Below, piece by piece: positions 1-18,478 of a stretch of DNA of 20,443 nucleotides. This stretch comes from a virus. The translations under genes were made by a program, and so were the position numbers. The notes under the pieces are model-generated. The model searched no databases. It had not been told where the DNA came from and was given only the letters and a program-made list of their open reading frames with translations. The stretch lies in the IMG/VR virus record IMGVR_UViG_3300027247_000032, positions 1-20,443 of that record; one strand, given 5' to 3'. The first letter of the stretch is position 1, and every line of letters starts with the position of its first letter.

Positions 1-912
1 TCTCCAGAAGTTAGTAAAGCAGCAGACTCAATGAGTGATAAAGATGCTAAAGATTTTGCATCAACATCTCATAAAGGATTACCTGATAAAATAAAAGAAA
101 TGGTATTGGCTGAATTACGTTCAGTAAGAGCCATTCAAACTGATTATGCTAAAACGTTAGATTCTATTCAACAAAATTTAGAAGGATATAAACAATCTAA
201 GGGAACTCCGCAAGAAAAACAATATGTACAAAAACTTAAAGCTCTAACCGCACAAAAGAAAAAACTTTCAGCAGAATTGGATGCTAAAGTTGGTGATATG
301 TATAAAGATGCCGAATTGAAAGTAGATGAAATGACCACTTCAGATGCAGCTGGCCCATATAACACACCATTTGCGTTTGGTAAAGGTGAGGATGAGAAAA
401 CTAAAGGTAAAAGACAAGCTGATTTAACAGGATATAGTGTAGTTAAAGAAGGTAAATACTATGTAACCTATAACAAAGGTAGAGGACAGGGTAAGGGGTT
501 GGAAAAAGAATTTGATAAAAAAACATTTAGTTCAACCAATAAGCCAAAAGTATTCAATTCATTTAAGGATGCAAAGAAACACGCCGAAGATATGGAAAAA
601 ATGTTTCGCCATTCGATAGGTGGTGGAACGGCATATTGGGTATCAGATGAAAAAATGAATCCAATAAACGAAAATCGTTGGTTAGAATTAAAAAGAGATG
701 AATCTACTGCACAATCTAAGATTGGTAGAGGCATATCTAATATCAATAAACAATTAGCAGAAATGGAAAGATTTCTTAATTGGTATGGTAAAATTAAGAA
801 CGAAAGTGGGGTAGATAATAAAAGTTATTGGAAAAGAACAAATAGTCATATTTATAGTATAAAGGAACGATTACTAAAATTAGACCAAAAAATAAGACAA
901 ATTTCAGAATAA
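1..912 (+). CDS. Unknown phage protein, 5'-truncated (C-terminal 303 codons)
   Basis: The frame is open from the first base, with ten codons before the first ATG at 31, so the true start probably lies outside the window. I do not recognise a named family. Counting from Met31, residues about 25-105 are highly charged and look helical or coiled-coil. A Gly/Pro-containing segment follows (AGPYNTPFAFGKGE, about 110-123), then a basic aromatic stretch (GKYYVTYNKGRGQGKG, about 141-156), a Gly-rich piece (SIGGGTAYWVSDE) and a C-terminal charged helix. No membrane segment or signal peptide is visible. It lies upstream of the prohead protease, where T4-like phages usually carry portal and prohead-core genes, so a virion or assembly role is plausible but only inferred from position. 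Its TAA overlaps the next ATG by one base (TAATG), implying translational coupling. Confidence 0.7.
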   Translation, partial: SPEVSKAADSMSDKDAKDFASTSHKGLPDKIKEMVLAELRSVRAIQTDYAKTLDSIQQNLEGYKQSKGTPQEKQYVQKLKALTAQKKKLSAELDAKVGDMYKDAELKVDEMTTSDAAGPYNTPFAFGKGEDEKTKGKRQADLTGYSVVKEGKYYVTYNKGRGQGKGLEKEFDKKTFSSTNKPKVFNSFKDAKKHAEDMEKMFRHSIGGGTAYWVSDEKMNPINENRWLELKRDESTAQSKIGRGISNINKQLAEMERFLNWYGKIKNESGVDNKSYWKRTNSHIYSIKERLLKLDQKIRQISE

Positions 913-1223
913 TGAAAATAGCTCAATTAAAAGAACTTGTTAAGCAAGTAGTGAAAGAAGAACACGATTATCAGCAATTATTTAAACATATGTTAGATAA
1001 GGCTGGTAAAGATATCTCATCGATGAACGATGATGAAAAAAAGAAATTCTTTAATGCTGTTGATACTGCTTATAAAGCAAAATCGGAAGGTAGATTGAGA
1101 GGATATAATGAAAACTTACCTGGAAATCAGGAAAAGTTAGATACTGATAAAGATGGTGAAATTGAGGCGAGTGATTTAGCAGCATTAAGAGCTAAAAATG
1201 AAGGAGCCAAAAAAAAAAAGTAG
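912..1223 (+). CDS. Small EF-hand/dockerin-like phage protein; zero frame of a probable frameshift gene
   Basis: The product is 103 residues and charged. It begins with a short amphipathic Lys/Glu helix (MKIAQLKELVKQVVKEE), a kind of N-terminus I associate with many marine T4-like small proteins. Residues 77-88 (DTDKDGEIEASD) match the 12-position EF-hand loop: Asp at 1, 3, 5 and 12, Gly at 6, Ile at 8. This suggests calcium binding, although only one loop is present. The zero frame ends in four Lys codons (AAA AAA AAA AAG) followed directly by TAG at 1221. That sequence contains the classic -1 slippery heptamer A AAA AAG, and the -1 frame continues open to 1639. The zero-frame product may therefore be the shorter of two products. 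The start overlaps the preceding stop. Its function is unknown. Confidence 0.75.
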   Translation: MKIAQLKELVKQVVKEEHDYQQLFKHMLDKAGKDISSMNDDEKKKFFNAVDTAYKAKSEGRLRGYNENLPGNQEKLDTDKDGEIEASDLAALRAKNEGAKKKK

Positions 1224-1266
1224 TTAGTGAGGGTGTAATAGAAGGAATCCTTGCAACTATAACCTT
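1201..1266 (+). promoter_or_regulatory. Candidate programmed -1 frameshift site (dnaX-like layout)
   Basis: Three elements occur in the order known from E. coli dnaX. An SD-like AAGGAG is at 1201-1206. An 11-A run (1209-1219) then ends in the slippery heptamer A AAA AAG (1214-1220), in phase with the zero frame. A possible downstream stem begins nine bases later: AGGGT (1230-1234) can pair with ACCTT (1262-1266), ATAG (1238-1241) with CTAT (1257-1260), and AAGG (1242-1245) with CCTT (1249-1252). The zero frame stops at TAG 1221. The -1 frame reads on through a hydrophobic segment into the downstream gene and would give about 242 residues. An assembly error in the A-run or transcriptional slippage could explain the layout equally well. 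Confidence 0.55.
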
Positions 1267-1297
1267 AGCTATATTAGGTAAAGTAGTTATCTATTTT

Positions 1298-1639
1298 ATG
1301 TATGAATTAGCTAAAAAAGTAGGAAACTATGTAAATGGTAACGAAAAATATAAAAAAGCCGTTGCTAAAATATTAGAATCAATATCCAATAATAAACAAG
1401 CTATGAATGATATAGCTAAATTAATGGATAGTAACGATGGAATAAATAATGGGGTTGCAGATAAGATAGTGAGAATGGGATATGTACAAACACTAATAAT
1501 TAAAATGGTGGAAAGTACAAATAGTGAGTTAGATGAAACGGAGTTAACAAATTATTTAAAAACAGCTTTATTAAAAGCTTGGGAAGATAAAGGATTAACT
1601 GATAGAGCAACAGAAAAGGTAAAAAAAGATATAAAATAA
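1298..1639 (+). CDS. Unknown small protein; probable -1 frameshift extension carrying a transmembrane segment
   Basis: From the first ATG the product is 113 residues, largely helical and charged, and of no recognised family. The frame is, however, open back to 1202, and the stretch before the ATG encodes GVIEGILATITLAILGKVV followed by IYFMYELAKK, a clear membrane-spanning helix. No ATG, GTG or TTG lies in frame before 1298, and that ATG falls inside the hydrophobic segment with no SD before it. The simplest reading is that this is the C-terminal half of a fusion with the preceding gene, made by -1 frameshifting at 1214-1220. The fused product would be an EF-hand-like N-terminus, one membrane helix and a helical C-terminal domain. 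Independent initiation at 1298 remains possible. The TAA abuts the next ATG with no gap. Confidence 0.6.
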   Translation: MYELAKKVGNYVNGNEKYKKAVAKILESISNNKQAMNDIAKLMDSNDGINNGVADKIVRMGYVQTLIIKMVESTNSELDETELTNYLKTALLKAWEDKGLTDRATEKVKKDIK

Positions 1640-2230
1640 ATGAATAAAGGATTATTAATAGAGACCCATTTGTTTGAAGCTAAGCTTGTAGAACAAGATA
1701 ACGGAACTTATTTAGTTAAGGGAATCCTACAAAGAGCAGGTGCTCCAAATCAAAATAATAGAAGATATCCTAAAGACATATTAGAAAGAGAGTGTAAGAA
1801 ATACGAACAACTTATTAAAGAAAGAAGAGCATTGGGTGAATTAGACCATCCAGACTCTCCGGTTATTAATTTAAAGAATGTATCTCATAATATTAGAGAA
1901 ATAGGTTGGGATGGAGATGATGTGGTTGGTACAGTAGAAATACTTTCAACTCCATCTGGAAATATCCTTAGAGAACTATTAAAAAACAATATTCGTTTAG
2001 GAATTTCATCGAGAGGACTAGGTTCGGTTAAAGAGTTATCAGACGGGACTGTAATGGTTCAGGAGGACTTTGAATTGGTAGGATGGGATTTTGTATCAAA
2101 CCCATCTACGCATGGCGCATTTATGGCACCAATGAATGAATCAAAGCAATGGGCTAAAGCTGCAGAAGAATGTGGAAAATGGTGTCGTTCACAAGATTTA
2201 ATGAGAGAAATTATAATAGAATTAAACTAA
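1640..2230 (+). CDS. 21: Prohead core protease, T4 gp21-like
   Basis: This serine protease of the T4 gp21 family (herpesvirus/HK97-type prohead protease fold) should act inside the immature capsid, cutting scaffold and shell proteins during maturation. The 196-residue protein is close to the T4 length. Visible signatures are RRYPKDIL (about 41-48), the catalytic-His region GELDHPDSP with His70, and the Ser region GISSRGLGS with Ser123 or Ser124 as likely nucleophile. FELVGWDFVSNPS comes next and is typical of the family after the active site. Near the N-terminus LFEAKL (11-16) resembles the (L/I)xE cleavage motif of T4 protease targets and could be a self-cleavage site; that is inference. It directly precedes small core-type genes, scaffold and capsid genes, as expected for this module. 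There is no recognisable SD. Confidence 0.9.
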   Translation: MNKGLLIETHLFEAKLVEQDNGTYLVKGILQRAGAPNQNNRRYPKDILERECKKYEQLIKERRALGELDHPDSPVINLKNVSHNIREIGWDGDDVVGTVEILSTPSGNILRELLKNNIRLGISSRGLGSVKELSDGTVMVQEDFELVGWDFVSNPSTHGAFMAPMNESKQWAKAAEECGKWCRSQDLMREIIIELN

Positions 2231-3354: not shown

Positions 3355-4557
3355 ATGGCAAATTCAAAATTATTGAAAGAAGCAATCGCCGATGCTAAAG
3401 CGGTTAAAGAAACTGCATTAGCTAACGCAAAGCTTGCTTTAGAAGAAGCCTTTACACCAAGACTACAGTCTATGTTAACTCAAAAGTTAAGAGCTGAAGC
3501 TGAAATGGAAGGCGATGAAGAGCAAGTAGATGAAGAACTAGATTCAACAGGAATCGGTTCAGGCACATCTAATCCTACTTTGGATGCACATACCGAATTT
3601 GAAGCCGGTTCAACTGAAACAACATCTGGTGAGCCAGGTGCACAAGTTGACGACTACAAAAAAGTAGCAGACATCAACGAAGAAGAGGGTATGGAATCAG
3701 AACCATCTGAAAAAGATGCTGAAATCGCAGAATTGAAAGCGAGATTAGCAGAATTAGAAGGTGAAGCAGGTTCAGAAGAAGAAAATCCTTTCGCACAAGC
3801 AGAAGGTGAAGATGAAGTGGGCATGGATGACATGGGCATGGATTCTGAAATGGGTGGTGATTCAATGGACATGGGTTCTGACGATGAAGAATCAGAAGAT
3901 GACATGGACTTAGAAGCTATCATCAGAGAATTAGAAGCTCAATTAGGAGATGACGAAGAGGTATCCGAAGAAGAATCTGAAGAAGAAAATCCATACGCAG
4001 CTAACGAAAACTTAGCAGATGGTTCTGAAGCAGGTACTGATAAAGGAGAAACACCTAAAGTAGTTGTAACTAATGAAGAAGCAGACTCAGACGAAGTTGA
4101 CTTAGAAGAAATTTTAAGAGAAATGGAAGCTGATATGAAAGGCGATGAAGAGAAAATGGATGAAGCTGAAGAAACCGAAAAAGACAAGGAAATCGAAGAA
4201 GCTTACAACACTATCAAATCATTACAAAGAACTATCAACGAAGTAAATTTGTTAAACGCAAAATTATTATTCGCTAACAAATTGTTCAGAGCTCATAATA
4301 TGACTAACGAACAAAAAATTAAAGTTATCGAAACGTTAGATAGAACAAAATCGGTAAGAGAGGTTAAATTGGTATTCTCTACATTAGCAGAGAACTTCAA
4401 ATACACTTCAATTAACAAAAACGCTAAGAAAACAATCAAAGAAGGAATCGCTAGTAAAGTAGTTAAATCTACTAAGCCAGCAGTAGCTAGAACAGTAATC
4501 TCTGAATCAGCTCAAATTTCTGATAGATTTAAGAAATTAGCAGGTATTATTAAGTAA
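3355..4557 (+). CDS. 22: Prohead core scaffold protein, T4 gp22-like
   Basis: The 400-residue protein would be the major internal scaffold on which the capsid assembles, later degraded by the gp21-type protease. The N-terminal 45 residues form a Lys/Ala/Glu-rich helix. Residues about 50-285 are extremely acidic and low in complexity, with long Glu/Asp runs and Gly-Met-Asp repeats around 155-180. The C-terminal third carries the diagnostic block INEVNLLNAKLLFANKLFRA, then NMTNEQKIKVIETLDRTKSV, then LVFSTLAENF, matching my memory of gp22 proteins of T4-like phages. It ends in a basic tail (SDRFKKLAGIIK). It is longer than T4 gp22, mainly through the acidic middle. Position immediately before the shell gene is the T4 arrangement. 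Many (L/I)xE tripeptides give potential protease sites. Confidence 0.82.
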   Translation: MANSKLLKEAIADAKAVKETALANAKLALEEAFTPRLQSMLTQKLRAEAEMEGDEEQVDEELDSTGIGSGTSNPTLDAHTEFEAGSTETTSGEPGAQVDDYKKVADINEEEGMESEPSEKDAEIAELKARLAELEGEAGSEEENPFAQAEGEDEVGMDDMGMDSEMGGDSMDMGSDDEESEDDMDLEAIIRELEAQLGDDEEVSEEESEEENPYAANENLADGSEAGTDKGETPKVVVTNEEADSDEVDLEEILREMEADMKGDEEKMDEAEETEKDKEIEEAYNTIKSLQRTINEVNLLNAKLLFANKLFRAHNMTNEQKIKVIETLDRTKSVREVKLVFSTLAENFKYTSINKNAKKTIKEGIASKVVKSTKPAVARTVISESAQISDRFKKLAGIIK

Positions 4558-4584: not shown

Positions 4585-6195
4585 ATGGACTTAAAAAAAT
4601 TAATGAACGGCGCGAACCCACAAAGCGTAATGCTTGAGCAAACTCGTGGTTTGAAAGCTAAATGGGAAAAAACAGGTTTGTTAGAGAACGCAGGTTCTGA
4701 TACAACCAAGCATGGTATGGCAGTAATGTTAGAAAACCAAGCAAAACAATTATTAGATGAGGCAACTCGTACAGGTACATCTTCAGGTTCTGAAGAGTGG
4801 GCTGGTGTAGCATTACCTTTGGTAAGAAGAATCTTCGGTTCTATTGCAGCGAAAGAATTCGTTTCAGTTCAACCAATGAACTTACCTTCAGGTCTTATAT
4901 TCTACATGGACTTCAAATATGGTACTGCAGCAGCAGGTAACCCAGATTTCTCTGGTTCATCTTTATTCGGTAATGGTGGAGTTTTTGGTAAAGATTCACA
5001 ATCACCAGCAGGTAACAAATTAGGTTCAACTCAAGTAGCTGAAGGTGGTTTGTATGGTGCAGGTAGATTTGGATACACAATCAATAACGCAACTGCTGGT
5101 ATTGCTGCAACTTTTGCATCAGCATCTTTAGGAGATATTGATTATGATTTTTCAAACGCAACAGTTTCTGCATCTTATGCAGCTAACACTTTGAAAAAAG
5201 TTGTAGTAGCATTACCAGCTGATGCTGATTTTAATGGTATTAGAGCTTTCGAACCAACAACAACTACTGGTTCTGTAACTTTCTACCCACAATATACAAC
5301 TAAGAATGGTTCTAACGTTGAATTTGTTGCAACTGCAACCGGTTTAAGTAACTTAGCAAATCTTGGTGTATCTTTAGCATATCATGTACAACCTACTGAT
5401 ATCACTCGTGGAGATTTTGAAGATAGAGGTTCTAACTTAGCAATCCCAGAGATTGAATTAGAATTGAAATCAGAACCAATCGTTGCTAAGACTCGTAAGT
5501 TAAAAGCAATTTGGACTCCTGAATTGGCACAAGATTTGAACGCATACCACTCTGTAGATGCAGAAGCTGAATTGACTCAAATGTTAAGTGAGTACATCTC
5601 TTTAGAAATCGACTTAGAAATCTTAGAAATGTTACAACAAAACGCTTTCACAACTGAATTTTGGTCAGCAAAAGTTGGATACGATTGGAATGGTGCAGGA
5701 TTCTCTGTAGATTCTGATGCAGTTTCTTCTGGTGCATACCAAAAGAATACTTGGTTCCAGACTTTAGGTATTAAATTACAAAAAGTTTCTAACAAGATTC
5801 ACCAATTAACAATGAGAGGTGGAGCAAACTTCGTTGTATGTTCTCCAAACGTGGCAACTATCTTAGAATCAATGAACGGATTCTCTGCTAACCCAGGTAA
5901 AGATGCAACAACATTCTCTGCAGGTGTAACTAATATCGGTTCTATCTCAAATAGATACGATGTTTACAAAAACCCTTATATGACTGAGAACGTATTATTA
6001 ATGGGCTTCAAAGGTTCTAACTTCTTCGAGACTGGAGCAGTTTACGCACCTTATGTACCATTGATTATGACTCCTTTAGTGTACGACCCAACTAACTTCA
6101 CTCCAAGAAGAGGAGTTATGACTCGTTACGCTAAGAAAATAGTAAGACCAGAATTCTACGGTAAAGTAGTAATTGGTGGTTTAGAAACTCTTTAA
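4585..6195 (+). CDS. 23: Major capsid protein, T4 gp23-like
   Basis: This 536-residue protein is the HK97-fold shell subunit, close in length to T4 gp23 (521). Diagnostic segments are ALPLVRRIFG (76-85), FVSVQPMNLPSGLIFYMDFK (92-111, the gp23 VQPM..P.G..F block) and, after mid-protein, IPEIELELKSEPIVAKTRKL followed by ELAQDLNAYHSVDAEAELTQ. Residues about 115-285 are Gly/Ser/Thr-rich and would hold an inserted, surface-exposed domain. The likely maturation cut is LDE59/A60, which fits the T4 (L/I)xE rule and lies close to the position of the T4 cut (after residue 65); LLE34 and MLE50 are alternatives. It follows scaffold by 27 A-rich bases without an SD, so both are probably co-transcribed. 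Two strong terminators follow it, as expected for the most abundant late transcript. Confidence 0.95.
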   Translation: MDLKKLMNGANPQSVMLEQTRGLKAKWEKTGLLENAGSDTTKHGMAVMLENQAKQLLDEATRTGTSSGSEEWAGVALPLVRRIFGSIAAKEFVSVQPMNLPSGLIFYMDFKYGTAAAGNPDFSGSSLFGNGGVFGKDSQSPAGNKLGSTQVAEGGLYGAGRFGYTINNATAGIAATFASASLGDIDYDFSNATVSASYAANTLKKVVVALPADADFNGIRAFEPTTTTGSVTFYPQYTTKNGSNVEFVATATGLSNLANLGVSLAYHVQPTDITRGDFEDRGSNLAIPEIELELKSEPIVAKTRKLKAIWTPELAQDLNAYHSVDAEAELTQMLSEYISLEIDLEILEMLQQNAFTTEFWSAKVGYDWNGAGFSVDSDAVSSGAYQKNTWFQTLGIKLQKVSNKIHQLTMRGGANFVVCSPNVATILESMNGFSANPGKDATTFSAGVTNIGSISNRYDVYKNPYMTENVLLMGFKGSNFFETGAVYAPYVPLIMTPLVYDPTNFTPRRGVMTRYAKKIVRPEFYGKVVIGGLETL

Positions 6196-9948: not shown

Positions 9949-10470
9949 ATGGCAAACTTAATAAGATTAAAACAAATAGAGAGTGGTTCTGCATTACAAC
10001 AATCCGCAGAAATAGGAACGGATTTTAGTGCATCGGTAAATACGATTGTATCTCAATCATTGGTATCATCGTTATCACAATCTATTATAAATATTATAAC
10101 AAATAATGTAGGAGCAACTTTGCCAGCTGGGGTTGTATCGGGTTCATCTCAAATATACATTAGTGGAACAATTGGATATAGTGATATAGCAACGGATATA
10201 GAAGTAGCAGTAATAAGTTCTTCTTTATCGGCATCACAAGTTTTAATATCTTCTTCTATAAGTTCTTCAATTGCTGCAACATTAAGTGGAAGTTCATTAT
10301 CTGTTACCGCATTAAGTCAATCAGTAAGTGCGAGTTTAAGAGCCATAACTACATCTTATACAACAACTGCATCTTTCCATTCATACACATCATCATTAGG
10401 AGATACATTTGCAACCGATTTGGAAGTATATCTTACTTCTTCAAATATTATTGACCAAGGAGAATTTTAA
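9949..10470 (+). CDS. Short Ser-rich fibre-type protein with VSGSSQ motif
   Basis: This 173-residue protein is dominated by Ser, Thr, Ala and Ile in a low-complexity pattern typical of phage fibre stalks. It has a MANLIRLKQIESGSALQ head, then GVVSGSSQIYISGTIGY (a motif repeated throughout the fibre genes), then ATDIEVAVISSSLSASQ and a Ser/Ile run that is almost identical, also in DNA, to part of the next gene. It ends FATDLEVYLTSSNIIDQGEF, and the same ending pattern recurs in the gene at 12293. No enzymatic motif, signal peptide or membrane helix is visible. It may be a fibre subunit or an adaptor between fibres and baseplate; both are inference from composition and neighbours. Confidence 0.7.
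   Translation: MANLIRLKQIESGSALQQSAEIGTDFSASVNTIVSQSLVSSLSQSIINIITNNVGATLPAGVVSGSSQIYISGTIGYSDIATDIEVAVISSSLSASQVLISSSISSSIAATLSGSSLSVTALSQSVSASLRAITTSYTTTASFHSYTSSLGDTFATDLEVYLTSSNIIDQGEF
10242..10274 (+). repeat. 33-base direct repeat shared with the next fibre gene (copy 1)
   Basis: These 33 bases recur exactly at 11100-11132, in the same reading frame, encoding LISSSISSSIA. Similarity continues on both sides at protein level. Confidence 0.85.
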
Positions 10471-10483
10471 ATAATTAAAAGTT

Positions 10484-10496
10484 ATACTTATAAATA
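10484..10496 (+). promoter_or_regulatory. Candidate late promoter element before the 584-residue fibre gene
   Basis: ATACTTATA (10484-10492, one base off the shared motif) overlaps TATAAATA (10489-10496), which is exactly the T4 late promoter -10 consensus on the plus strand. It lies 25 bases before the ATG at 10522, in a 51-base gap with no other feature. Confidence 0.45.
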
Positions 10497-10521
10497 ATAA
10501 AGTAAATTAAGAATAATATAG

Positions 10522-12276
10522 ATGGCTCAATTAATACAGCATAAAAGAGGTAGATTAGAAAGATTATCGATAATTACGGGTTCTCTACAAAAAGGAGAAA
10601 TCTTAATTGTAACCGGTTCATCTAATATTACTTCATCAAATGGTTCATCTATTATATTCGCAGCAACTGAAAGTGGTTCAGTTCAAGCTACCAATAGATT
10701 TATAATTGGTAGTTCAGCACCAAATGTATTTCCAGCATCGACTTATGGTGGTTTAGTAAATGGAGTTCCTTATTACGATAGTGGTAGTGGAACTTTATAT
10801 TTGTTAGGAAACGATGGTAATACTCCAATCAACTTAACAGGTAACATCAGTACATTTAGTTCTTCAGTAGCAACAGCATTTTCGGCAAGTAATGCAACTT
10901 TAGCAAGTGTGACTGGTGATTTTAGTTCTTCAGTAGCAACATCATTTAGCGCGAGTAATGCAACTTTAAATACTTTAAGTTCTTCTATTTCCCAATCTAT
11001 TATTGATATTGTAAGTGCATCATTAAGTAGTTCTTTATCAGTTATAGCAACCGATATAGAAGTTGCAATTGTTAGTGCATCAGTATCTTCATCTCAAGCT
11101 TTAATATCTTCTTCTATAAGTTCTTCAATTGCATCAACTTTAAGTGGAAGTGCAGCATCAATTACGAGTTTAAGTTCATCAGTATCGGCTTCATTGGCAA
11201 CTTTGAGTGCAAGTAGTGGTTTCATTAACTATGTAACTAATAGTGTTCAAAATCTTACCGGAATTGAAGTTGCAGATTTTGATAGTAATACCGCAGTAAC
11301 ATTCGTAGATGGAGTTCTTAAATTTATTTTTGGAACACCAACACAACCAACATCGGTGGCAGCATCTACAAGTGGATTTGCAACTGATAGATTTAATAAT
11401 GTAACCGATGTATATTCAGTTAATGGAACTTGGAGTAATCAGGGATATACATTAGTAAGTGCATCTTTATACGAAGGAGCAACTCTATTAACACAAGTTG
11501 GTAGTGGAACATCATTAACATATAGTACGACAACATCGGGTTCTCACACATATAGATTAGAATATACGGCAAGTTCTCCATTGGATAATAGTTTATATAA
11601 AACATCAACTACTACAACAGGAACAGTATCTAAAACAAATCCTGCAGCACCTACATTGACACCAACTACAACAATTCAATTAGGAACTACTTCAAATCAA
11701 ATTGAACAAGGTGCAACTGGTAGTATTTCATTTACATCATCATCAGCAAATCCATCTAATAATTGGAATTTGACAAGTGTGACAACAAATGTGGCATCAC
11801 CTTATTATGTAACAGGTTCGGCAACGGGTTCTACTTCAATTAGTTTAACTGCAACTGCAAACTACGCATCTCCAACAGGTGAGAATATTCCTGATACTAC
11901 AACAACATCAACCGCAACTACTACATATACAAAAATTAGAAGTTTAAGATATGGTGCAAGTACGGCAACATCATTTACTGCAGGAGAATTAGAAAATATT
12001 GGTGCATGGGATACTACATTGGGTGGAACGATAGGAACGATTGCAAAAGGTACAACAACGGCAAGTGGACAAAGTGTAACAATAAGTTGGACTGGTGATA
12101 AATACCATTATATAGTATTTAATAGTTCACTATCAAACTTAACAAATATCACAACAGGTGGGTTTGGTGTATTTGGTTCGTTTACATTAACGACGGTTGG
12201 TAGTTATAAAGTTTATAGGATAGGTACTTTACAAGCAGGTGGTGCAGGAAGTAGCATAACATATGTATTAACATAA
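10522..12276 (+). CDS. Tail fibre/adhesin protein with Ig-like middle and distinct C-terminal domain
   Basis: The product is 584 residues. Residues 1 to about 115 (MAQLIQHKRGRLERLS, QKGEILIVTGSSN, FAATESGSVQATNRFIIG, GVPYYDSGSGTLYLLG) closely resemble the start of the 1438-residue fibre at 12812 and look like an attachment domain. Residues about 115-235 are a Ser-rich stalk with FSASNAT and ATDIEVAIVSASVSSSQ repeats. Residues about 272-465 read as Thr/Ser-rich beta-sandwich repeats (FN3 or Ig-like), such as GSHTYRLEYTASSPLDNS. From about 472 (IRSLRYGASTATSFTAGELE) a different domain ends in YKVYRIGTLQAGGAGSSITY, the likely receptor-binding tip. Host binding is inferred from architecture. It is preceded by a T4-like TATAAATA. 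Confidence 0.75.
   Translation: MAQLIQHKRGRLERLSIITGSLQKGEILIVTGSSNITSSNGSSIIFAATESGSVQATNRFIIGSSAPNVFPASTYGGLVNGVPYYDSGSGTLYLLGNDGNTPINLTGNISTFSSSVATAFSASNATLASVTGDFSSSVATSFSASNATLNTLSSSISQSIIDIVSASLSSSLSVIATDIEVAIVSASVSSSQALISSSISSSIASTLSGSAASITSLSSSVSASLATLSASSGFINYVTNSVQNLTGIEVADFDSNTAVTFVDGVLKFIFGTPTQPTSVAASTSGFATDRFNNVTDVYSVNGTWSNQGYTLVSASLYEGATLLTQVGSGTSLTYSTTTSGSHTYRLEYTASSPLDNSLYKTSTTTTGTVSKTNPAAPTLTPTTTIQLGTTSNQIEQGATGSISFTSSSANPSNNWNLTSVTTNVASPYYVTGSATGSTSISLTATANYASPTGENIPDTTTTSTATTTYTKIRSLRYGASTATSFTAGELENIGAWDTTLGGTIGTIAKGTTTASGQSVTISWTGDKYHYIVFNSSLSNLTNITTGGFGVFGSFTLTTVGSYKVYRIGTLQAGGAGSSITYVLT
11100..11132 (+). repeat. 33-base direct repeat shared with the previous fibre gene (copy 2)
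   Basis: Identical to 10242-10274, in frame. It sits in a longer shared module (ATDIEVA to TLSGS) whose flanks have diverged at synonymous and conservative sites. Confidence 0.85.
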
Positions 12277-12292
12277 AATAGAACAATAAGAA

Positions 12293-12682
12293 ATGGCAAT
12301 TATATTACCTAGTGGTTTTAACATAACGAATAGTGACCCGGTTGATGCTAGATTTAGTTTAGCAAATCAGGCAGCTCGTTATGCTTTATCAGCTGCTAAT
12401 ATTTATAAGGGATTAGTTGTATTTCAACAAGATGATTCTACATTATTTGTATTAACTGATACTACAAATGTAGGAAATGTGAATGGTTGGACACAAATAC
12501 AAATAGGAAGTGTTGTATCAAATCTTCCAAATGGTATTATAAGTAGTTCTCAACAAGTCATTGATATATTTAACGCAAACTTCACATCAGGTTCTACAAT
12601 GGCATCAACAGTAGATACCACATTTGCAACTGATGCAGAGTTATTTGTTACATCTTCTAACTTAGATGCAGGGGAGTTTTAA
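12293..12682 (+). CDS. Small fibre-associated protein
   Basis: This 129-residue protein has an N-terminal part (MAIILPSGFNITNSDPVDAR, then SLANQAARYALSAANIYKGL and VVFQQDDSTLFVLTDTT) resembling short phage tail proteins that cap or trimerise fibres; I cannot name the family. The second half carries NGIISSSQQVIDIFNANF, a divergent form of the VSGSSQ-type motif, and ends TTFATDAELFVTSSNLDAGEF, very like the C-terminus of the 9949 gene product. It starts 17 bases after the previous stop, so it is probably co-transcribed with the 584-residue fibre and may be its partner. The preceding sequence is A-rich without an SD. Confidence 0.65.
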   Translation: MAIILPSGFNITNSDPVDARFSLANQAARYALSAANIYKGLVVFQQDDSTLFVLTDTTNVGNVNGWTQIQIGSVVSNLPNGIISSSQQVIDIFNANFTSGSTMASTVDTTFATDAELFVTSSNLDAGEF

Positions 12683-12744
12683 TATAATAATAAATAATAT
12701 ATTAAAATATAATCCACTTTACTTAATGGTTACTTAAAAAATTA

Positions 12745-12753
12745 ATATTTATA
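12745..12753 (+). promoter_or_regulatory. Candidate late promoter element before the giant fibre gene
   Basis: An exact ATATTTATA lies in the 129-base gap 12683-12811, 58 bases before the ATG. The gap is very AT-rich and also holds TATATAATA downstream and a direct repeat TAGAATAAC (12779 and 12791). No terminator hairpin is apparent after the previous gene. Confidence 0.4.
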
Positions 12754-12811
12754 TCGGAATACTATATAATAACGCAGTAGAATAACAAAATAGAATAACC
12801 AATCCAAAAAT

Positions 12812-15800
12812 ATGGCACAAATCATTAGACACAGACGTGGTAGTTTAGAATCCCTTTCAGCAGCAACGGCATCGTTCCAAAAAGGTGAATTAATAATTGT
12901 ATCCGGCTCATCAAATCTTACTACAACAAATGGTAGTAGTATGGTATTCGCAGCTACCGCAAGTGGCTCAGTACAGGCAGTAAATAGATTCTTAATTGGA
13001 AATAATGCACCAAATACATTTCCTGCAGGAACTTATAACGGATTAGTTAAAGGTGTTCCTTACTACGCAAGTGGTAGTTCAACTTTATACTTATTAGGAG
13101 AAGGCCAAAATGATATCCCAGATTTAACTGGTAACATTAGTAACTTTAGTGCATCAGTAGTAACTTCTTTTTCAGCAAGTAATGCAAGTATTACTTCATT
13201 ATCAGCATCAGTTGCATCGGTAACAGGTGATTTTAGTTCTTCAGTTGCACAAACATTTACAACTCAAAGTGCTAGAATTACTTCATTAGAATCATTTAGT
13301 GGTTCTCAATTAACTCAAAATAGTGCATTAGCAACTATTTCTGGTTCATTGATTAGTTCAGCATCGGCTGCAAAAACAACAAATGATTCACAAGGCGTTT
13401 CAATAACAAACTTAAATACATTTAGTGGTTCTCAATTAACTCAAAATAGTGCATTAGCAACTATTTCAGGTTCGTTAATCAGTTCAGCATCCGCTGCTAA
13501 GACAACAAATGATTCACAGGATATTTCTATAACAAATATAAACTCATTTAGTTCTTCAGTATTAACACAATTAACTCAAATAGGAGTTGTTAGTGGTTCA
13601 TTAATTAGTTCAGCATCAGCAGCAAAAACATCAAACGATACACAAGATGTTAAATTAACAAATTTAGAATCTAAATCAGCTAGTGTTGATACTTCAATAG
13701 CAGCATTAAATAGTTATACATCTTCAAATGTATCGACTAACGCTTTAAATACATTCACAGGTTCTGCAAATGATAGATTTACTGAAATCGGCGTTGTAAG
13801 TGGAAGTTTGATAGCATCAGCATCCGCTGCAAAAACAACAAACGACTCACAAGGCGTTTCAATAACAAATATAAACTTAACTACTGCAAGTTTAAACACT
13901 TCAATAGCAGAATTAAACTCATATTCATCTTCATTAAAACAAGCATTTACTGCAAGTGGTGCTAATGTAACATTTAGTGGTGATGTAACTATTCCTGGTA
14001 ACCTTACGGTTAGAGGTACTCAAACTATTGTAGATTCTACAACTGTTCAAATCGGTGATAATATACTTGAATTAAACGGAAGTGCGGCTTCTAATGGTGG
14101 ATTGTATGTAAAAGATGCAACTGCACCAAATACCGCAACCGGTTCAATTGTTTGGGATTCAACAAATGACTTCTGGAAAGCAGGAGTTAAGAATTCTGAA
14201 TCTAAAGTATTATTAGCAGGTGGAGATTCAGTAGTAAGTGGTTCATCTCAAATTACTATTTCCAACACAACTGGATATGGTGATTTTAGTGGTTCTATTT
14301 CATCTTCAATTGCAGCTTTAAGTGCATCGGTAGGAAGTGGAGCTGGAGTTTCAATAGCAAATCTAAACTCATTCAGTTCATCTCAATTAACTCAAAATGG
14401 TACATTAGGAAACTATACCGCAAGTGTTGATACAAGATTAACTGAAATTGGTGTAGTAAGTGGTTCATTAATCGCTTCAGCATCAACTGCAAAATCTACA
14501 AATGATACACAAGATATTAGATTAAATAATTTAGAATCTAAATCAGGAAGTGTTGATACAAGATTAACTGAAATTGGAGTTGTAAGTGGTTCATTAATCG
14601 CTTCAGCATCAGCAGCTAAAACTACAAACGACTCACAAGGTGTTTCAATAACAAACATAAACTCATTTAGTTCTTCAGTATTAACACAATTAACTGAAAT
14701 TGGTGTAGTAAGTGGTTCATTAATTGCATCAGCATCAACAGCAAAAACAACAAATGATGCACAAGGTGTAAGTATTACAAATATAAATTCATTTAGTTCT
14801 TCAGCATTAACTCAATTAACCGAAATAGGTGTAGTTAGTGGAAGTTTAATTGCTTCAGCATCCGCTGCTAAGACAACAAATGATTCGCAAGGAGTTTCAA
14901 TTACTAATATTAATACTACAACTGCAAGTTTAAACACTTCAGTAACCAATTTAAATTTATCATCTGCATCTCAACAAACATCGATTGATGCATTGAATAG
15001 TTATACCTCTTCTAATACTTCTACAACTGCATTAAATTCATTCACTGCATCTGCAGAAACTAGATTTACTGAAATTGGAGTTGTAAGTGGAAGTTTAATC
15101 GCTTCAGCATCAGCAGCTAAAACAACAAATGATTCGCAAGGTGTAAGCATTACAAATATAAACTTAACTACTGCAAGTTTAAACACTTCAGTAACTAATT
15201 TAAATTTATCATCAGCATCTCAACAAACGAGTATTGATAATTTAAATACATTTAGTGGTTCGGCTAACACGAGATTAACTGAAATTGGTGTTGTTAGTGG
15301 AAGTTTGATAGCATCGGCATCGGCAGCAAAAACTACAAACGATTCGCAGGGTGTAAGTATTACAAATATAAACTTATTCAGTTCTTCAGTATTAACACAA
15401 TTAACTGAAATCGGCGTTGTAAGTGGAAGTTTGATAGCATCAGCATCAACGGCTAAAACTACAAACGATTCACAAGGAGTTTCAATAACAAACATAAACT
15501 CATTTAGTTCTTCAGCATTAACTCAATTTACTGAAATCGGAGTTGTTAGTGGAAGTTTAATCGCTTCAGCATCGGCAGCTAAGACAACAAATGACTCACA
15601 GGGTGTAAGTATTACGAATTTAAATTTAACTTCTGCAAGTTTAAACACTTCAGTAACTAATTTAAACTCAACTACTGCAAGTTTAAATACTTCAGTAACA
15701 GCATTAAATAGTTCATCAGCATCACAGCAAACATCTATTGATGCATTGAACTCTTACACTTCTTCTAATACATCGACTAACGCTTTAAATTCATTTACTG

Positions 15801-17128
15801 CATCTGCAGAAACTAGATTAACTGAAATCGGTATAGTAAGTGGAAGTTTAATAGCATCAGCATCAGCAGCTAAAACTACAAATGACTCACAGGGTGTAAG
15901 TATTACAAACTTAAATTCATTTAGTGCAAGTGTTAATACTTCGGTAACGGCTTTAAATAGTTCATCAGCATCTCAACAAATTAGTATAGATGCATTGAAT
16001 GTTGTAAGTAGTTCAAACTTAACTAGATTAACAAATTTAGAATCCAAATCAGCTAGTGTTGATACTTCAGTAGCAGCATTAAACTCATATTCATCCGCAT
16101 TAAAAACGGCATTTGAATTTACTGGTTCTAATGTTGTAGTATTAGGTGACTTTACTGTAAGAGGTACAACAACCGCAGTAGAATCAAATGTAGTTCAATT
16201 AGGTGATAACATCATTGAATTAAATGGTACTGGCGCTGCAAATGGTGGTTTATTAGTTAAAGACCCAACTGCACCTAATACGGTAAGTGGTTCTTTACTT
16301 TGGGATTCTACAAACGACTATTGGAAGGCAGGAGCAGCAGGAGCTGAAAGTAAATTATTAAGAGCAGGTGGTGATTCAGTAGTAAGTGGTTCTTCGCAAA
16401 TTACTATATCTTCAACAACCGGATTTGATACATTTAGTGGTTCAATTGCAACTTCATTTTCAGCAAGTAATGCAAGTATTACTTCATTATCTGCGAGTGT
16501 AGCAAGTGTAACGGGAGATTTTAGTGGTTCAGTAGCAACATCATTTAGTGCAAGTGCAGCATCTCAATTATTATTGAGTTCTTCATTCGCATCTTCTCAA
16601 ACTGCACAAAATGTTAGATTAGGTTTATTAGAAACATCGACTGGAAGTTTAAATTCATTTACTTCTTCGATTAATACTACTATTAAAACTAAATTAGATC
16701 TTGATGGTGTAGTAAGTGGTTCTTCGCAAATTACATACGCAAGTATCAGTTCTATACCAGCAGGAATAGTAAGTGGTTCTTCGCAAGTAACACCATTATT
16801 ACCAGCCGGTACTGTAAGTGGTTCTTCGCAAGTAACATCATTATTACCAGCCGGTATTGTAAGTGGTTCTTCGCAAATTGTATTAAACAACGCAGATTTT
16901 ACAGGATTTAATACTACGGATGTAGCAGAAGGAACAAACCTTTACTATACTGATGCAAGAGTTAAAACTAAATTAAATGCAGAAACAGTAGTAAGTGGTT
17001 CAATACAGGTTGATATTACTTCTACAACCGGATATTCAACATTTAGTGGTTCAATTGCAACATCGGTAAGTGCAAGTAATGCTAGAATAACAACATTAGA
17101 AACATTAATAGACGGAGGAACTTATTAA
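12812..17128 (+). CDS. Giant repetitive tail fibre protein (1438 residues)
   Basis: This is the longest gene in the window, probably a long tail fibre or whisker stalk. Residues 1 to about 115 are a paralogue of the N-terminus at 10522 (MAQIIRHRRGSLESLS, QKGELIIVSGSSN, NRFLIGNNAPNTFPAGTYNG). Residues about 174-1036 carry 13 copies of a core unit, GVVSGSLIASASAAKTTNDS, mostly spaced 42 residues with longer spacers of 69-97. Spacers such as TASLNTSVTNLNS have hydrophobic positions compatible with heptads, suggesting a trimeric coiled stalk. Two homologous compact domains interrupt it (about 389-470, GDVTIPGNLTVRGTQTIVDS; about 1111-1185, GDFTVRGTTTAVESNVVQLG), each followed by AGGDSVVSGSSQITIS. 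A 15-residue tandem repeat (about 1301-1355) precedes NLYYTDARVKTKLNAE, a common fibre motif, and the end LIDGGTY. It contains no Cys in the parts I read. Confidence 0.85.
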   Translation: MAQIIRHRRGSLESLSAATASFQKGELIIVSGSSNLTTTNGSSMVFAATASGSVQAVNRFLIGNNAPNTFPAGTYNGLVKGVPYYASGSSTLYLLGEGQNDIPDLTGNISNFSASVVTSFSASNASITSLSASVASVTGDFSSSVAQTFTTQSARITSLESFSGSQLTQNSALATISGSLISSASAAKTTNDSQGVSITNLNTFSGSQLTQNSALATISGSLISSASAAKTTNDSQDISITNINSFSSSVLTQLTQIGVVSGSLISSASAAKTSNDTQDVKLTNLESKSASVDTSIAALNSYTSSNVSTNALNTFTGSANDRFTEIGVVSGSLIASASAAKTTNDSQGVSITNINLTTASLNTSIAELNSYSSSLKQAFTASGANVTFSGDVTIPGNLTVRGTQTIVDSTTVQIGDNILELNGSAASNGGLYVKDATAPNTATGSIVWDSTNDFWKAGVKNSESKVLLAGGDSVVSGSSQITISNTTGYGDFSGSISSSIAALSASVGSGAGVSIANLNSFSSSQLTQNGTLGNYTASVDTRLTEIGVVSGSLIASASTAKSTNDTQDIRLNNLESKSGSVDTRLTEIGVVSGSLIASASAAKTTNDSQGVSITNINSFSSSVLTQLTEIGVVSGSLIASASTAKTTNDAQGVSITNINSFSSSALTQLTEIGVVSGSLIASASAAKTTNDSQGVSITNINTTTASLNTSVTNLNLSSASQQTSIDALNSYTSSNTSTTALNSFTASAETRFTEIGVVSGSLIASASAAKTTNDSQGVSITNINLTTASLNTSVTNLNLSSASQQTSIDNLNTFSGSANTRLTEIGVVSGSLIASASAAKTTNDSQGVSITNINLFSSSVLTQLTEIGVVSGSLIASASTAKTTNDSQGVSITNINSFSSSALTQFTEIGVVSGSLIASASAAKTTNDSQGVSITNLNLTSASLNTSVTNLNSTTASLNTSVTALNSSSASQQTSIDALNSYTSSNTSTNALNSFTASAETRLTEIGIVSGSLIASASAAKTTNDSQGVSITNLNSFSASVNTSVTALNSSSASQQISIDALNVVSSSNLTRLTNLESKSASVDTSVAALNSYSSALKTAFEFTGSNVVVLGDFTVRGTTTAVESNVVQLGDNIIELNGTGAANGGLLVKDPTAPNTVSGSLLWDSTNDYWKAGAAGAESKLLRAGGDSVVSGSSQITISSTTGFDTFSGSIATSFSASNASITSLSASVASVTGDFSGSVATSFSASAASQLLLSSSFASSQTAQNVRLGLLETSTGSLNSFTSSINTTIKTKLDLDGVVSGSSQITYASISSIPAGIVSGSSQVTPLLPAGTVSGSSQVTSLLPAGIVSGSSQIVLNNADFTGFNTTDVAEGTNLYYTDARVKTKLNAETVVSGSIQVDITSTTGYSTFSGSIATSVSASNARITTLETLIDGGTY
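13331..15920 (+). repeat. 13 in-frame copies of a fibre repeat, basic period 126 bases
   Basis: Copy positions, taken at the codon preceding (V/I)SGSLI, are 13331, 13457, 13583, 13790, 14450, 14576, 14702, 14828, 15077, 15287, 15413, 15539 and 15830. Seven of the intervals are exactly 126 bases (42 residues); the others (207, 660, 249, 210, 291) are multiples of three. Protein sequence is nearly constant while codons vary, except between copies 1 and 2, which share about 49 identical bases starting at 13293 and 13419. Confidence 0.9.
16712..16876 (+). repeat. Tandem VSGSSQ repeat, identical 18-base core
   Basis: GTAAGTGGTTCTTCGCAA occurs at 16712, 16769, 16814 and 16859, with a fifth copy upstream at 16382. 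The last three are spaced exactly 45 bases (15 residues, LPAG(T/I)VSGSSQVTSL). All five cores are identical at DNA level. Confidence 0.92.
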
Positions 17129-17156
17129 TAAAACAAAATAAAGAAATAACAACAAT

Positions 17157-17687
17157 ATGGCACAAAAAATATTATTAAAACGCTCCGGGGTATCGGGTTC
17201 GATACCTACAACCGCAAATATAGATTTAGGCGAATTAGCACTGAATACCTATGACGGTAAAGCCTTTATGCACAAATCGGGTTCAACTGATGAAGTTGTA
17301 CAATTTGTAGTAGCAGGCTCAACCACATCAGGTTCAATTAGTTTGACTGGAGCAATAACCGCATCGGCATTCAAAGGAGATGGTACATACTTAACAGGTG
17401 TAACCGCATCGATGAGACCTGATGACTTTGATTTCAACTCTGACCCGTTCGCAGGAACAATTGGATACATACAAGGTAGTGGTTCTCTTTATAAAGTAGC
17501 AACTACAACAAGTTCCGTTGATTTTAGATATAACGATGTAACAATCGCAACTATCACAACTGCACAAGGATTTAGTGGCTCTCTTTATGGAATTGGTGAT
17601 GTATTAGCATTTAGTGGCTCGGTTCATAGTAGATTATTCAACTTAGAAATATCAGCATCATTCGGACCAGATGGTGGAGAAATCTAA
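17157..17687 (+). CDS. Short fibre-type protein with KRS anchor and GDG-LTGV motif
   Basis: This 176-residue protein begins MAQKILLKRSGVSGSIPTTA followed by LGELALNTYDGKAFMHKSG, an N-terminal motif widespread in phage fibre and adhesin proteins, with weak resemblance to the N-terminal fold of tropism-determinant proteins. AITASAFKGDGTYLTGVTAS is the usual GDG..LTGV fibre motif. The C-terminal half is beta-rich and ends SASFGPDGGEI, sharing the D-x-G-(E/T) ending of other fibre genes here. It starts 28 bases after the giant fibre stop in an A-rich gap, so it is probably on the same transcript, and a strong terminator follows. It may be a short fibre or a subunit attached to the giant fibre; the role is inferred. 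Confidence 0.72.
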   Translation: MAQKILLKRSGVSGSIPTTANIDLGELALNTYDGKAFMHKSGSTDEVVQFVVAGSTTSGSISLTGAITASAFKGDGTYLTGVTASMRPDDFDFNSDPFAGTIGYIQGSGSLYKVATTTSSVDFRYNDVTIATITTAQGFSGSLYGIGDVLAFSGSVHSRLFNLEISASFGPDGGEI

Positions 17688-17707
17688 TAACAAATAAAAA
17701 AATTAAT

Positions 17708-17733
17708 AAAACCCCTCTTAGTAGGGGTTTTTT
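17708..17733 (+). terminator. Strong rho-independent terminator after the giant-fibre transcript
   Basis: A perfect 9-bp stem AAAACCCCT (17708-17716) with AGGGGTTTT (17723-17731), a 6-base loop and a T-rich tail ends the transcript 20 bases after the stop codon. Confidence 0.92.
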
Positions 17734-17743
17734 ATTTTATAGT

Positions 17744-17769
17744 ATATTTATATCCGTAGTATATACTAC
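17744..17769 (+). promoter_or_regulatory. Candidate promoter element plus 14-base palindrome
   Basis: ATATTTATA (17744-17752) lies 11 bases after the terminator and 50 bases before the ATG at 17803. It is followed at 17756-17769 by the perfect palindrome GTAGTATATACTAC, which would cover the expected transcription start region and could be an operator or just the 5' end of an mRNA hairpin. Confidence 0.42.
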
Positions 17770-17802
17770 ATTTTTGTTAGATAACTTTAAAGGATTAGAC
17801 AT

Positions 17803-18429
17803 ATGTCACAAATTGTTCAGCTGAAACGCAGTGCGTTATCGGGTAAGGTACCTGATACGGGTTCACTTAATTTAGGAGAATTAGCGGTAAATACTTACGA
17901 TGGTAAGATTTATTTTAAAAAATCAGGTTCAATTGAATCCATTGAAAGTGTTTTAACAACAAATTCCACAGTAACAGGTTCTATTAGATTAGAAGGAAGT
18001 GGTTCGTTTGGTTCTTTAAAAGTAAACGATACTCTTACCGTCAATCACGGTGAAACAATAATTAGTGGTTCTGCATTAGTAACAAACGACCTAACTATAT
18101 TAGGAGCAGTTAATGCCAGACAATTCAATATTTCAGTAATTTCTTCATCCGTACTTTTTGAAAGTGGTAGTTCTAGATTTGGTAATACTTCCGATGATAT
18201 ACATTCATTTACAGGCTCATTACAAGTTAGTGGTTCACAAACAATAACAGGAAGCGTAACCGCAACATCCTTTGTAGGAGATGGTAGTGGTTTGACAGGG
18301 ATGGTGGTAGATTTATCAACTGCACAATTAAACGATGTGGATGGGAATAACATACCAGCACGTTCATTTGCAGAATTATATGTAGCATGTGCAGCGGCAG
18401 ACATAGTAGATTTGGATTTTGGACTATAA
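17803..18429 (+). CDS. Fibre-type protein with KRS anchor and GDGSGLTGM motif
   Basis: This 208-residue protein is a paralogue of the 17157 product at its N-terminus (MSQIVQLKRSALSGKVPDTG, LGELAVNTYDGKIYFKKSG). The middle is beta-rich with repeated short strands of the type found in fibre shafts (SIRLEGSGSFGSLKVNDTLT, then TIISGSALVTNDLTILGAVN). It contains ATSFVGDGSGLTGMVVDLST, the standard fibre motif, but its C-terminus (ARSFAELYVACAAADIVDLD) is unlike its neighbours and may be a different tip. It is one of the few genes with a plausible SD: AAAGGA eight to nine bases before the ATG. It forms its own short transcript after the strong terminator, or continues into the next gene. Confidence 0.72.
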   Translation: MSQIVQLKRSALSGKVPDTGSLNLGELAVNTYDGKIYFKKSGSIESIESVLTTNSTVTGSIRLEGSGSFGSLKVNDTLTVNHGETIISGSALVTNDLTILGAVNARQFNISVISSSVLFESGSSRFGNTSDDIHSFTGSLQVSGSQTITGSVTATSFVGDGSGLTGMVVDLSTAQLNDVDGNNIPARSFAELYVACAAADIVDLDFGL

Positions 18430-18445
18430 TAAAAGAAAAAAGATA

Positions 18446-18463
18446 TTCTTATATTTATAAGAA
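18446..18463 (+). promoter_or_regulatory. ATATTTATA motif embedded in a perfect dyad
   Basis: In the 49-base gap before the last gene, the motif (18451-18459) is the centre of TTCTTATATTTATAAGAA, an 8-bp inverted repeat with a two-base centre. It lies 19 bases before the ATG. It could be a promoter, a small RNA hairpin or a protein-binding dyad; no T-run follows, so a terminator is unlikely. Confidence 0.35.
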
Positions 18464-18478
18464 ACATAATAGAATTAA

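Follow-up and report, generated by a model that had tools for sequence, protein, structure and literature searches.

A probable programmed −1 frameshift between two prohead-region reading frames of T4-like phages

Comparative analysis of viral metagenomic contigs indicates that a gene in the prohead region of a T4-like phage lineage very probably contains a programmed −1 frameshift site. The window, that is, the whole stretch of viral DNA that was analyzed (20,443 nucleotides; IMG/VR record IMGVR_UViG_3300027247_000032, positions 1 to 20,443), contains the site between two open reading frames, here denoted A and B (Table 1). Under the mechanism that we propose, most ribosomes would terminate at the TAG at 1221, yielding protein A of 103 aa, and a hairpin located just downstream would hold a minority of the ribosomes with tandem lysine tRNAs on the heptamer A_AAA_AAG. 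The held ribosomes would slip back by one base and read into B, resulting in an A-B fusion of approximately 242 aa whose added part is a membrane helix followed by a helical C-terminal domain. The slipping agent is probably the ribosome, not RNA polymerase, with some polymerase slippage on A10-11 likely to occur besides.

Table 1. Features of the window (positions are those of the window)
Feature	Position	Strand	Remarks
ORF A, short product, 103 aa	912..1223	+	helical N-terminal region, EF-hand-type loop, KKKK end
Candidate head-targeting leader of A, MKIAQLKE	912..935	+	gp21-type LxE motif at end
EF-hand/dockerin-type calcium loop DTDKDGEIEASD	1140..1175	+	invariant pattern, Pfam sub-threshold
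SD-like AAGGAG	1201-1206	+	group-wide conservation absent
Slippery run A11-G	1209..1220	+	A11 1209-1219, G1220
Core heptamer A_AAA_AAG, zero frame of ORF A	1214-1220	+	read from sequence
Zero-frame stop TAG of ORF A	1221-1223	+	read from sequence
Predicted 3′ stimulatory hairpin	1220..1260	+	inner stem 1227-1234/1247-1254, outer 1220-1225/1255-1260
ORF B, −1 frame, 139 codons + stop	1220..1639	+	C-terminal part of A-B fusion
Predicted membrane helix of B, VIEGILATITLAILGKVVI	1235..1291	+	Kyte-Doolittle
Prohead protease, gp21-like	1640..2230	+	Peptidase_S77, E 9e-30
Scaffold protein at gp22 position	3355..4557	+	position and acidic composition; no family match
Major capsid protein, gp23-like	4585..6195	+	E 5.2e-78

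Results

The A/B junction in the window

The 3′ end of ORF A reads GAA GGA GCC AAA AAA AAA AAG TAG, with CC separating the SD-like AAGGAG (1201-1206) from A11 (1209-1219). The −1 frame is blocked by a TGA at 1199-1201 and then remains open from 1202 to the TAA at 1637-1639, with no ATG, GTG or TTG upstream of 1298; a hydrophobic stretch with a Kyte-Doolittle value of 2.13 over 19 residues lies within the first 30 codons of this frame. An earlier reading of this DNA from the sequence only (hereinafter, the sequence-only reading) had listed the AAGGAG, the A11 run, the zero-frame A_AAA_AAG with its immediate TAG, the −1 frame that stays open to 1639 and lacks a start codon before 1298, and the early membrane helix, and each of these elements is present where it was reported. 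The 19-residue Kyte-Doolittle maximum of B lies between 1.84 and 2.39 in all 80 distinct homologues (80/80).

Conservation of the run, the stop and the frame relation

Homologues of B were collected from viral metagenomic contigs by scans with each half, with the B alignment and with divergent members, yielding 80 distinct sequences with identity to the window down to approximately 40%. Automatic classification assigned 76 of the 80 to a single layout, in which an A-run is followed by a prompt zero-frame stop and by B in the −1 frame; because these 76 junctions come from related sequences, they do not represent 76 independent trials. The conserved A-run for which the sequence-only reading advised a search is thus found in these 76 (10 or 11 A in 73), with A9 in 2 junctions, A10 in 46, A11 in 27 and A12 in 1. 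The distance from the run to the stop is 0-2 nt in 74 of the 76 junctions and 4 nt in 2, and differences in run length are offset by a compensating codon (KKKK, QKKK, EKKK, KKKR, VKKKK) such that the −1 relation is unchanged. B has widely diverged among the homologues, whereas the junction has not. Of the four exceptions, three are B genes with their own start (represented by L072, L074 and L079), and the fourth is a contig in which A has suffered a deletion (L143 = L258; IMGVR_UViG_3300008113_002210); in the latter, the intact A11 run is met in another phase, reflecting either a natural mutant or a chimeric assembly.

The overlapping loci retrieved for the analysis total 1.2 Mb and contain 171 A-runs of at least 10 nucleotides, of which 168 map to the A/B junction (167 by coordinate and one in the truncated L001, which ends just past the run), and the remaining three look non-coding. 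AT-rich coding therefore does not account for the run. Inside the run, each lysine codon ahead of the final one is AAA, and AAG directly precedes the stop in 60 of the 76 junctions; outside the run, AAG accounts for 28% of the lysine codons in A and 16% in B. Accordingly, A_AAA_AAG precedes the stop in the window and in 60/76 distinct junctions; a pure A_AAA_AAA is available in 14 junctions, and both A9 cases have A_AAA_AAG one codon earlier. In 14 of the 76, GG or the stop itself, instead of G-stop, directly follows the run.

Neither the run nor B is present in relatives whose A gene is directly followed by the protease gene, and in five of these B-less relatives, the largest with a record of 209 kb, the remainder of the record also yielded no B. 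B is dispensable in this lineage (L004, L015, L053 and others are without it), which, like the off-phase run of L143, weighs against the proposed mechanism. The run-stop-B cassette follows several distinct upstream C-terminal ends: the EF-hand-type loop in 68 of the 76 junctions, a domain ending in KEAFNKMAQKKK (e.g., L047), or a domain ending in TESTNEGVKKKK (L208/L211), and in L240 and L246 it lies behind a truncated A that lacks the loop. Another module exchange is seen in L119, L131, L134 and L136, where A carries an insertion of 29-67 aa that separates its N-terminal helices from the calcium-type loop.

RNA structure downstream of the run and the agent of slippage

Protein-preserving synonymous-codon shuffles were used as the control for RNA folding. 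In the window, the 66 nt after the run, for which a possible stem had been noticed in the sequence-only reading, fold at −15.6 kcal/mol, surpassing 98.8% of 1000 synonymous versions (z −2.61, p 0.012), and the inner 8-bp stem starts 6 nt past the slippery G. The same region has a mean z of −3.11 against synonymous shuffles over 59 distinct sequences, and the extra structure fades in the 3′ direction (z −1.72 for the following 66 nt, close to 0 by the 200-nt mark); the L211 homologue has no hairpin (z +0.36). The sister clade possesses a long hairpin that begins 8 nt past the slippery G, in which 79% of the cells pair, vs. 32-50% for slid registers, and 0 of 500 shuffles match the observed pairing or covariation. 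One pair in this hairpin is C-G in 20 sequences and U-A in 12, via synonymous changes in Leu and Lys codons. A one-register consensus for the sister-clade hairpin was discarded as a poorer fit than a consensus with a bulge. The hairpin of the window's clade is a different one that varies less, and covariation support for it was not found; this result and the hairpin-less L211 weigh against the proposed mechanism.

With respect to the 5′ side of the run, the AAGGAG that the sequence-only reading counted among the signal elements is present in the window, but 70 of the 76 junctions have no SD-like stimulator within 16 nt of the run, and hence the hexamer is rejected as a conserved part of the signal. 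Of the 17 starts inspected in the window, 14 are without an SD.

The most serious rival to ribosomal frameshifting is transcriptional slippage, whereby the polymerase would add one A or drop two on A10-11 and normal translation would then produce A-B. Bacterial RNA polymerase is known to slip on homopolymers (PMC6260861, PMC5009743), and the 9-12 A present in 76/76 junctions exceed what a 7-nt ribosomal heptamer needs and form a homopolymer of at least 9 on which the polymerase can slip; this route also tolerates equally well the 14 junctions with GG or a direct stop after the run. However, bacterial polymerase is reported to require longer A-runs than T-runs (PMC6260861), and the last codon, AAG in 60/76 junctions, completes A_AAA_AAG even though AAG is the rarer lysine codon. 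Moreover, the conserved hairpin lies on the 3′ side and has thus not been transcribed at the time when the polymerase sits on the run, which favors the ribosome over the polymerase and reduces RNA-polymerase slippage as the sole cause to an unlikely explanation.

Selection on the −1 segment and the start codons of B

Over the 26 codons past the run, the B frame is free of stops without exception in the 60 aligned junctions (0/60), and both other frames have stops. For the B frame, pN/pS amounts to 0.33 in the window's clade and to 0.52 in the sister clade, where the hairpin also restricts synonymous change, and the near-invariant residues of B start at the run. This pattern bears on a second possibility, namely that ribosomes slide on the poly-lysine AAA codons in an event that is tolerated and not programmed. 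An A11 insert gave robust out-of-frame product in E. coli extracts, with little from A9 and A10 (PMC4363877), and some sliding may accompany the shift on the A10-11 runs; here, however, the commonest length is A10 (46/76), and a frame that is always −1, a B segment under selection and a conserved hairpin make the event look used, such that mere sliding appears improbable.

It could also be envisaged that B is a separate protein, translated from an internal start (1298 or a non-canonical codon) or through re-initiation after the A stop, given the ATG at 1298 in the window and the own start of B in L072, L074 and L079. However, the first possible start (ATG, GTG or TTG) in the B frame falls anywhere from codon 7 to codon 64, with none conserved, so an internal start for B was rejected; a start at 1298 would drop the conserved hydrophobic helix of the window, and the position of the A-run and that of the stop would be left unexplained. 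The real own starts precede this helix and add a leader, contrary to the well-conserved start after the hydrophobic segment that the sequence-only reading had named as the observation that would speak against a shift. Altogether, a separately translated B seems highly improbable.

The own-start B genes (L072:4600-5046, L074:4600-5046 and L079:3013-3459) overlap the upstream stop (ATGA) and encode the leader MIKLKSILIEVM. The A10 run persists inside these genes, in frame through two extra bases, suggesting a conversion from the frameshift gene, or the reverse.

Proteins A and B

The AlphaFold model of A contains helices at 3-31, 40-58 and 87-98 (mean pLDDT 63.5), and that of B consists of a helix at 7-35 followed by a helical domain (mean pLDDT 86.1). 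The loop of A fits the 12-residue EF-hand pattern DxDxDGxIxxxD/E, and D77, D79, D81, G82, I84 and D88 are invariant in the 32-row family alignment. The EF-hand Pfam profile scores 16.2 bits vs. a cut-off of 25.9, and the loop region is modeled at pLDDT <50, such that a helix-loop-helix fold is not supported. Thus, the EF-hand-like character assigned to A in the sequence-only reading holds for the loop pattern, invariant in 32 homologues, and family matches are only sub-threshold. No named family in Pfam or PHROGs matches A or B above threshold, and searches of the PDB and of solved sequences gave no informative match for B.

Among the predicted viral proteins of BFVD, the sole significant structural match of both the A and the B models is A0A6J5M8K1, a 204-aa protein of an uncultured Caudovirales phage with 58% identity to A over 79 columns and 33% to B over 141. 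This one chain has the look of a single-frame A-B fusion, the form that had been proposed for a search among homologues, and its single frame may be native or due to another A-count. The shift that joins A to a membrane-helix domain is accordingly supported by the conserved run, stop and −1 relation, by the open segment before the first ATG with no conserved B start, and by the 3′ hairpin (covarying in the sister clade) together with this single-chain viral match to both halves. Long A-runs are error-prone and the BFVD match spans A and B in one chain, but a sequencing or assembly error in the homopolymer of a continuous gene, or a phase-variable contingency tract, is excluded for practical purposes by the same −1 frame in dozens of contigs from different metagenomes, with 9, 10, 11 and 12 A all offset to keep it and the stop directly after the run in 74/76, so that the miscounted A-run feared in the sequence-only reading cannot account for all 74 distinct junctions.

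The candidate leader of A has an invariant L6 and E8 in 32 homologues, and LxE-like motifs recur elsewhere in the phage (gp21 LIE, gp22 LKE, and LNE in the ORF at 2490). In T4, proteins are directed into the head by a ten-residue capsid-targeting sequence, which gp21 processes; T4 gp21 has such a motif of its own, LIE-9 (PMC9026906). The own-start B of L072 begins with MIKLKSILIEVMKKK, with LIE at residues 8-10. By analogy, these motifs suggest, without proving, that the frameshift gives B the head-targeting N-terminus of A. The ORF at 2490-2966 encodes a leader MIRLKDLLNEED, with LNE at 8-10 resembling the leader of the own-start B, and ends in a tail rich in Cys and His, CGCNKHHDCGCGGHHKH; its product could be a core protein with a metal-binding tail.

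Gene order and distribution

The complete gene order is seen in L031: gp20 (Portal_T4, E 5.3e-72), two ORFs, A, B, gp21, gp22-like, gp23. In tblastn searches of INPHARED, no isolated phage showed a match to A or B. Among the nearest capsid relatives, B is absent in Microcystis phage Mel-JY01, Flavobacterium phage immuto and LR756508; Rhodothermus RM378, another of these relatives, was assessed by its annotation only. GTDB genomes yielded no relative of B. We infer that these are phages of Bacteroidota, which fits the scarcity of SD and the presence of Flavobacterium phages among the nearest capsid relatives. Farther downstream in the window, 12812-17128 encodes a 1438-aa protein built from numerous, almost identical repeats (GVVSGSLIASASAAKTTNDSQGVSITN...); several related putative fibre genes rich in repeats, this one included, lie within 9949-20443.

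Discussion

Assembly of T4 proheads starts on the inner membrane with gp20 and gp40 (PMC9958956). Given this, and the T4-like place of the gene, the most likely role of the fusion is that of a minor membrane-linked form of a core protein; the alternative is injection with the DNA. We tentatively suggest that the N-terminus of A brings B into the growing prohead and that the fusion is a minor membrane-linked component. With A in the cytoplasm and a single spanning helix, the C-terminal domain of B would be periplasmic, a neat fit with neither role. A more speculative extension, which we consider rather unlikely as it stands, is that the frameshift sets the dose of a membrane-inserted core component: soluble A would fill the core, and a fixed B-bearing minority would anchor the nascent complex of portal and core at the host inner membrane, or else be carried within the head and enter the membrane of the next cell with the DNA. 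If true, frameshifting would divide one head protein between a soluble and a membrane form, and this would take the place of the gp20/gp40 membrane start known from T4, or add to it.

The practical consequence is that ordinary gene calling splits A-B, such that B is missed or given a false internal start and the membrane helix is lost. As a recoding site, the junction is well supported and comes with an extensive natural alignment, which encompasses run lengths of 9-12, varied hairpins, module swaps, losses and own-start conversion, in phages with mostly SD-less genes, where frameshift stimulation is little known. Furthermore, the apparent production of soluble and membrane forms from one gene of the portal-protease interval, as predicted from sequence, could help in studying the way in which T4-like heads make contact with the membrane.

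With respect to known systems, the site resembles dnaX (E. coli tau/gamma and the 'reversed' dnaX) in the A_AAA_AAG heptamer, the 3′ stem-loop a few nucleotides downstream and the two products in different frames. The upstream SD-like stimulator is a feature of E. coli dnaX that is not obligatory in the dnaX-type class. In reversed dnaX genes, such as the Chlorobium candidate, the stop comes after the site and the shift yields the long product (PMC5009743). The present site agrees with this reversed arrangement and differs from E. coli dnaX, in that the stop follows the site and the longer product would arise by the shift; of the E. coli dnaX element order proposed in the sequence-only reading, the heptamer and the 3′ stem thus stand, and the unconserved SD and the stop order, that of the rarer 'reversed' dnaX, do not. 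Of the features that define the dnaX type, the heptamer, a 3′ structure 5-9 nt downstream and a conserved downstream ORF without its own start are found here, and a conserved SD-like stimulator is not. Unlike dnaX, the site has a longer A-run (9-12), no conserved 5′ SD stimulator, a location in the phage head region and unrelated proteins. The −1 frameshift of carboxysomal Cso2 likewise produces short and long forms, in a shell-like assembly, and has a 3′ structure without a 5′ SD (PMC5009743); the proteins are different, the genes are unrelated and Cso2 is without a membrane helix.

Phage structural genes with −1 frameshifts include T7 gene 10 and lambda G/GT. In Listeria phage PSA, the structural-gene frameshift is +1 (PMC5009743). 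As in these three systems, a frameshift would set the ratio of two forms of an assembly protein, whereas the known cases are capsid, tail or tail-chaperone genes. To our knowledge, none of them adds a membrane helix. Proteins A and B are comparable to T4 gp67/gp68 and the CTS-led internal proteins in their place within the gp20-gp21 interval and in the LxE-type leader, and differ from gp67/gp68 in having no sequence match to a named family and in the extra EF-hand-type loop and membrane domain. We know of no such frameshift in T4, and no description of one in T4-like proheads was found in the open-access literature, which is weak evidence of absence. In summary, a −1 shift at A_AAA_AAG combined with a 3′ stem-loop belongs to a known kind, which includes the stop-after-site dnaX genes (PMC5009743); the T4-like prohead-region site with its long conserved A-run, the added membrane helix and the breadth of natural variation appear to be new and previously undescribed.
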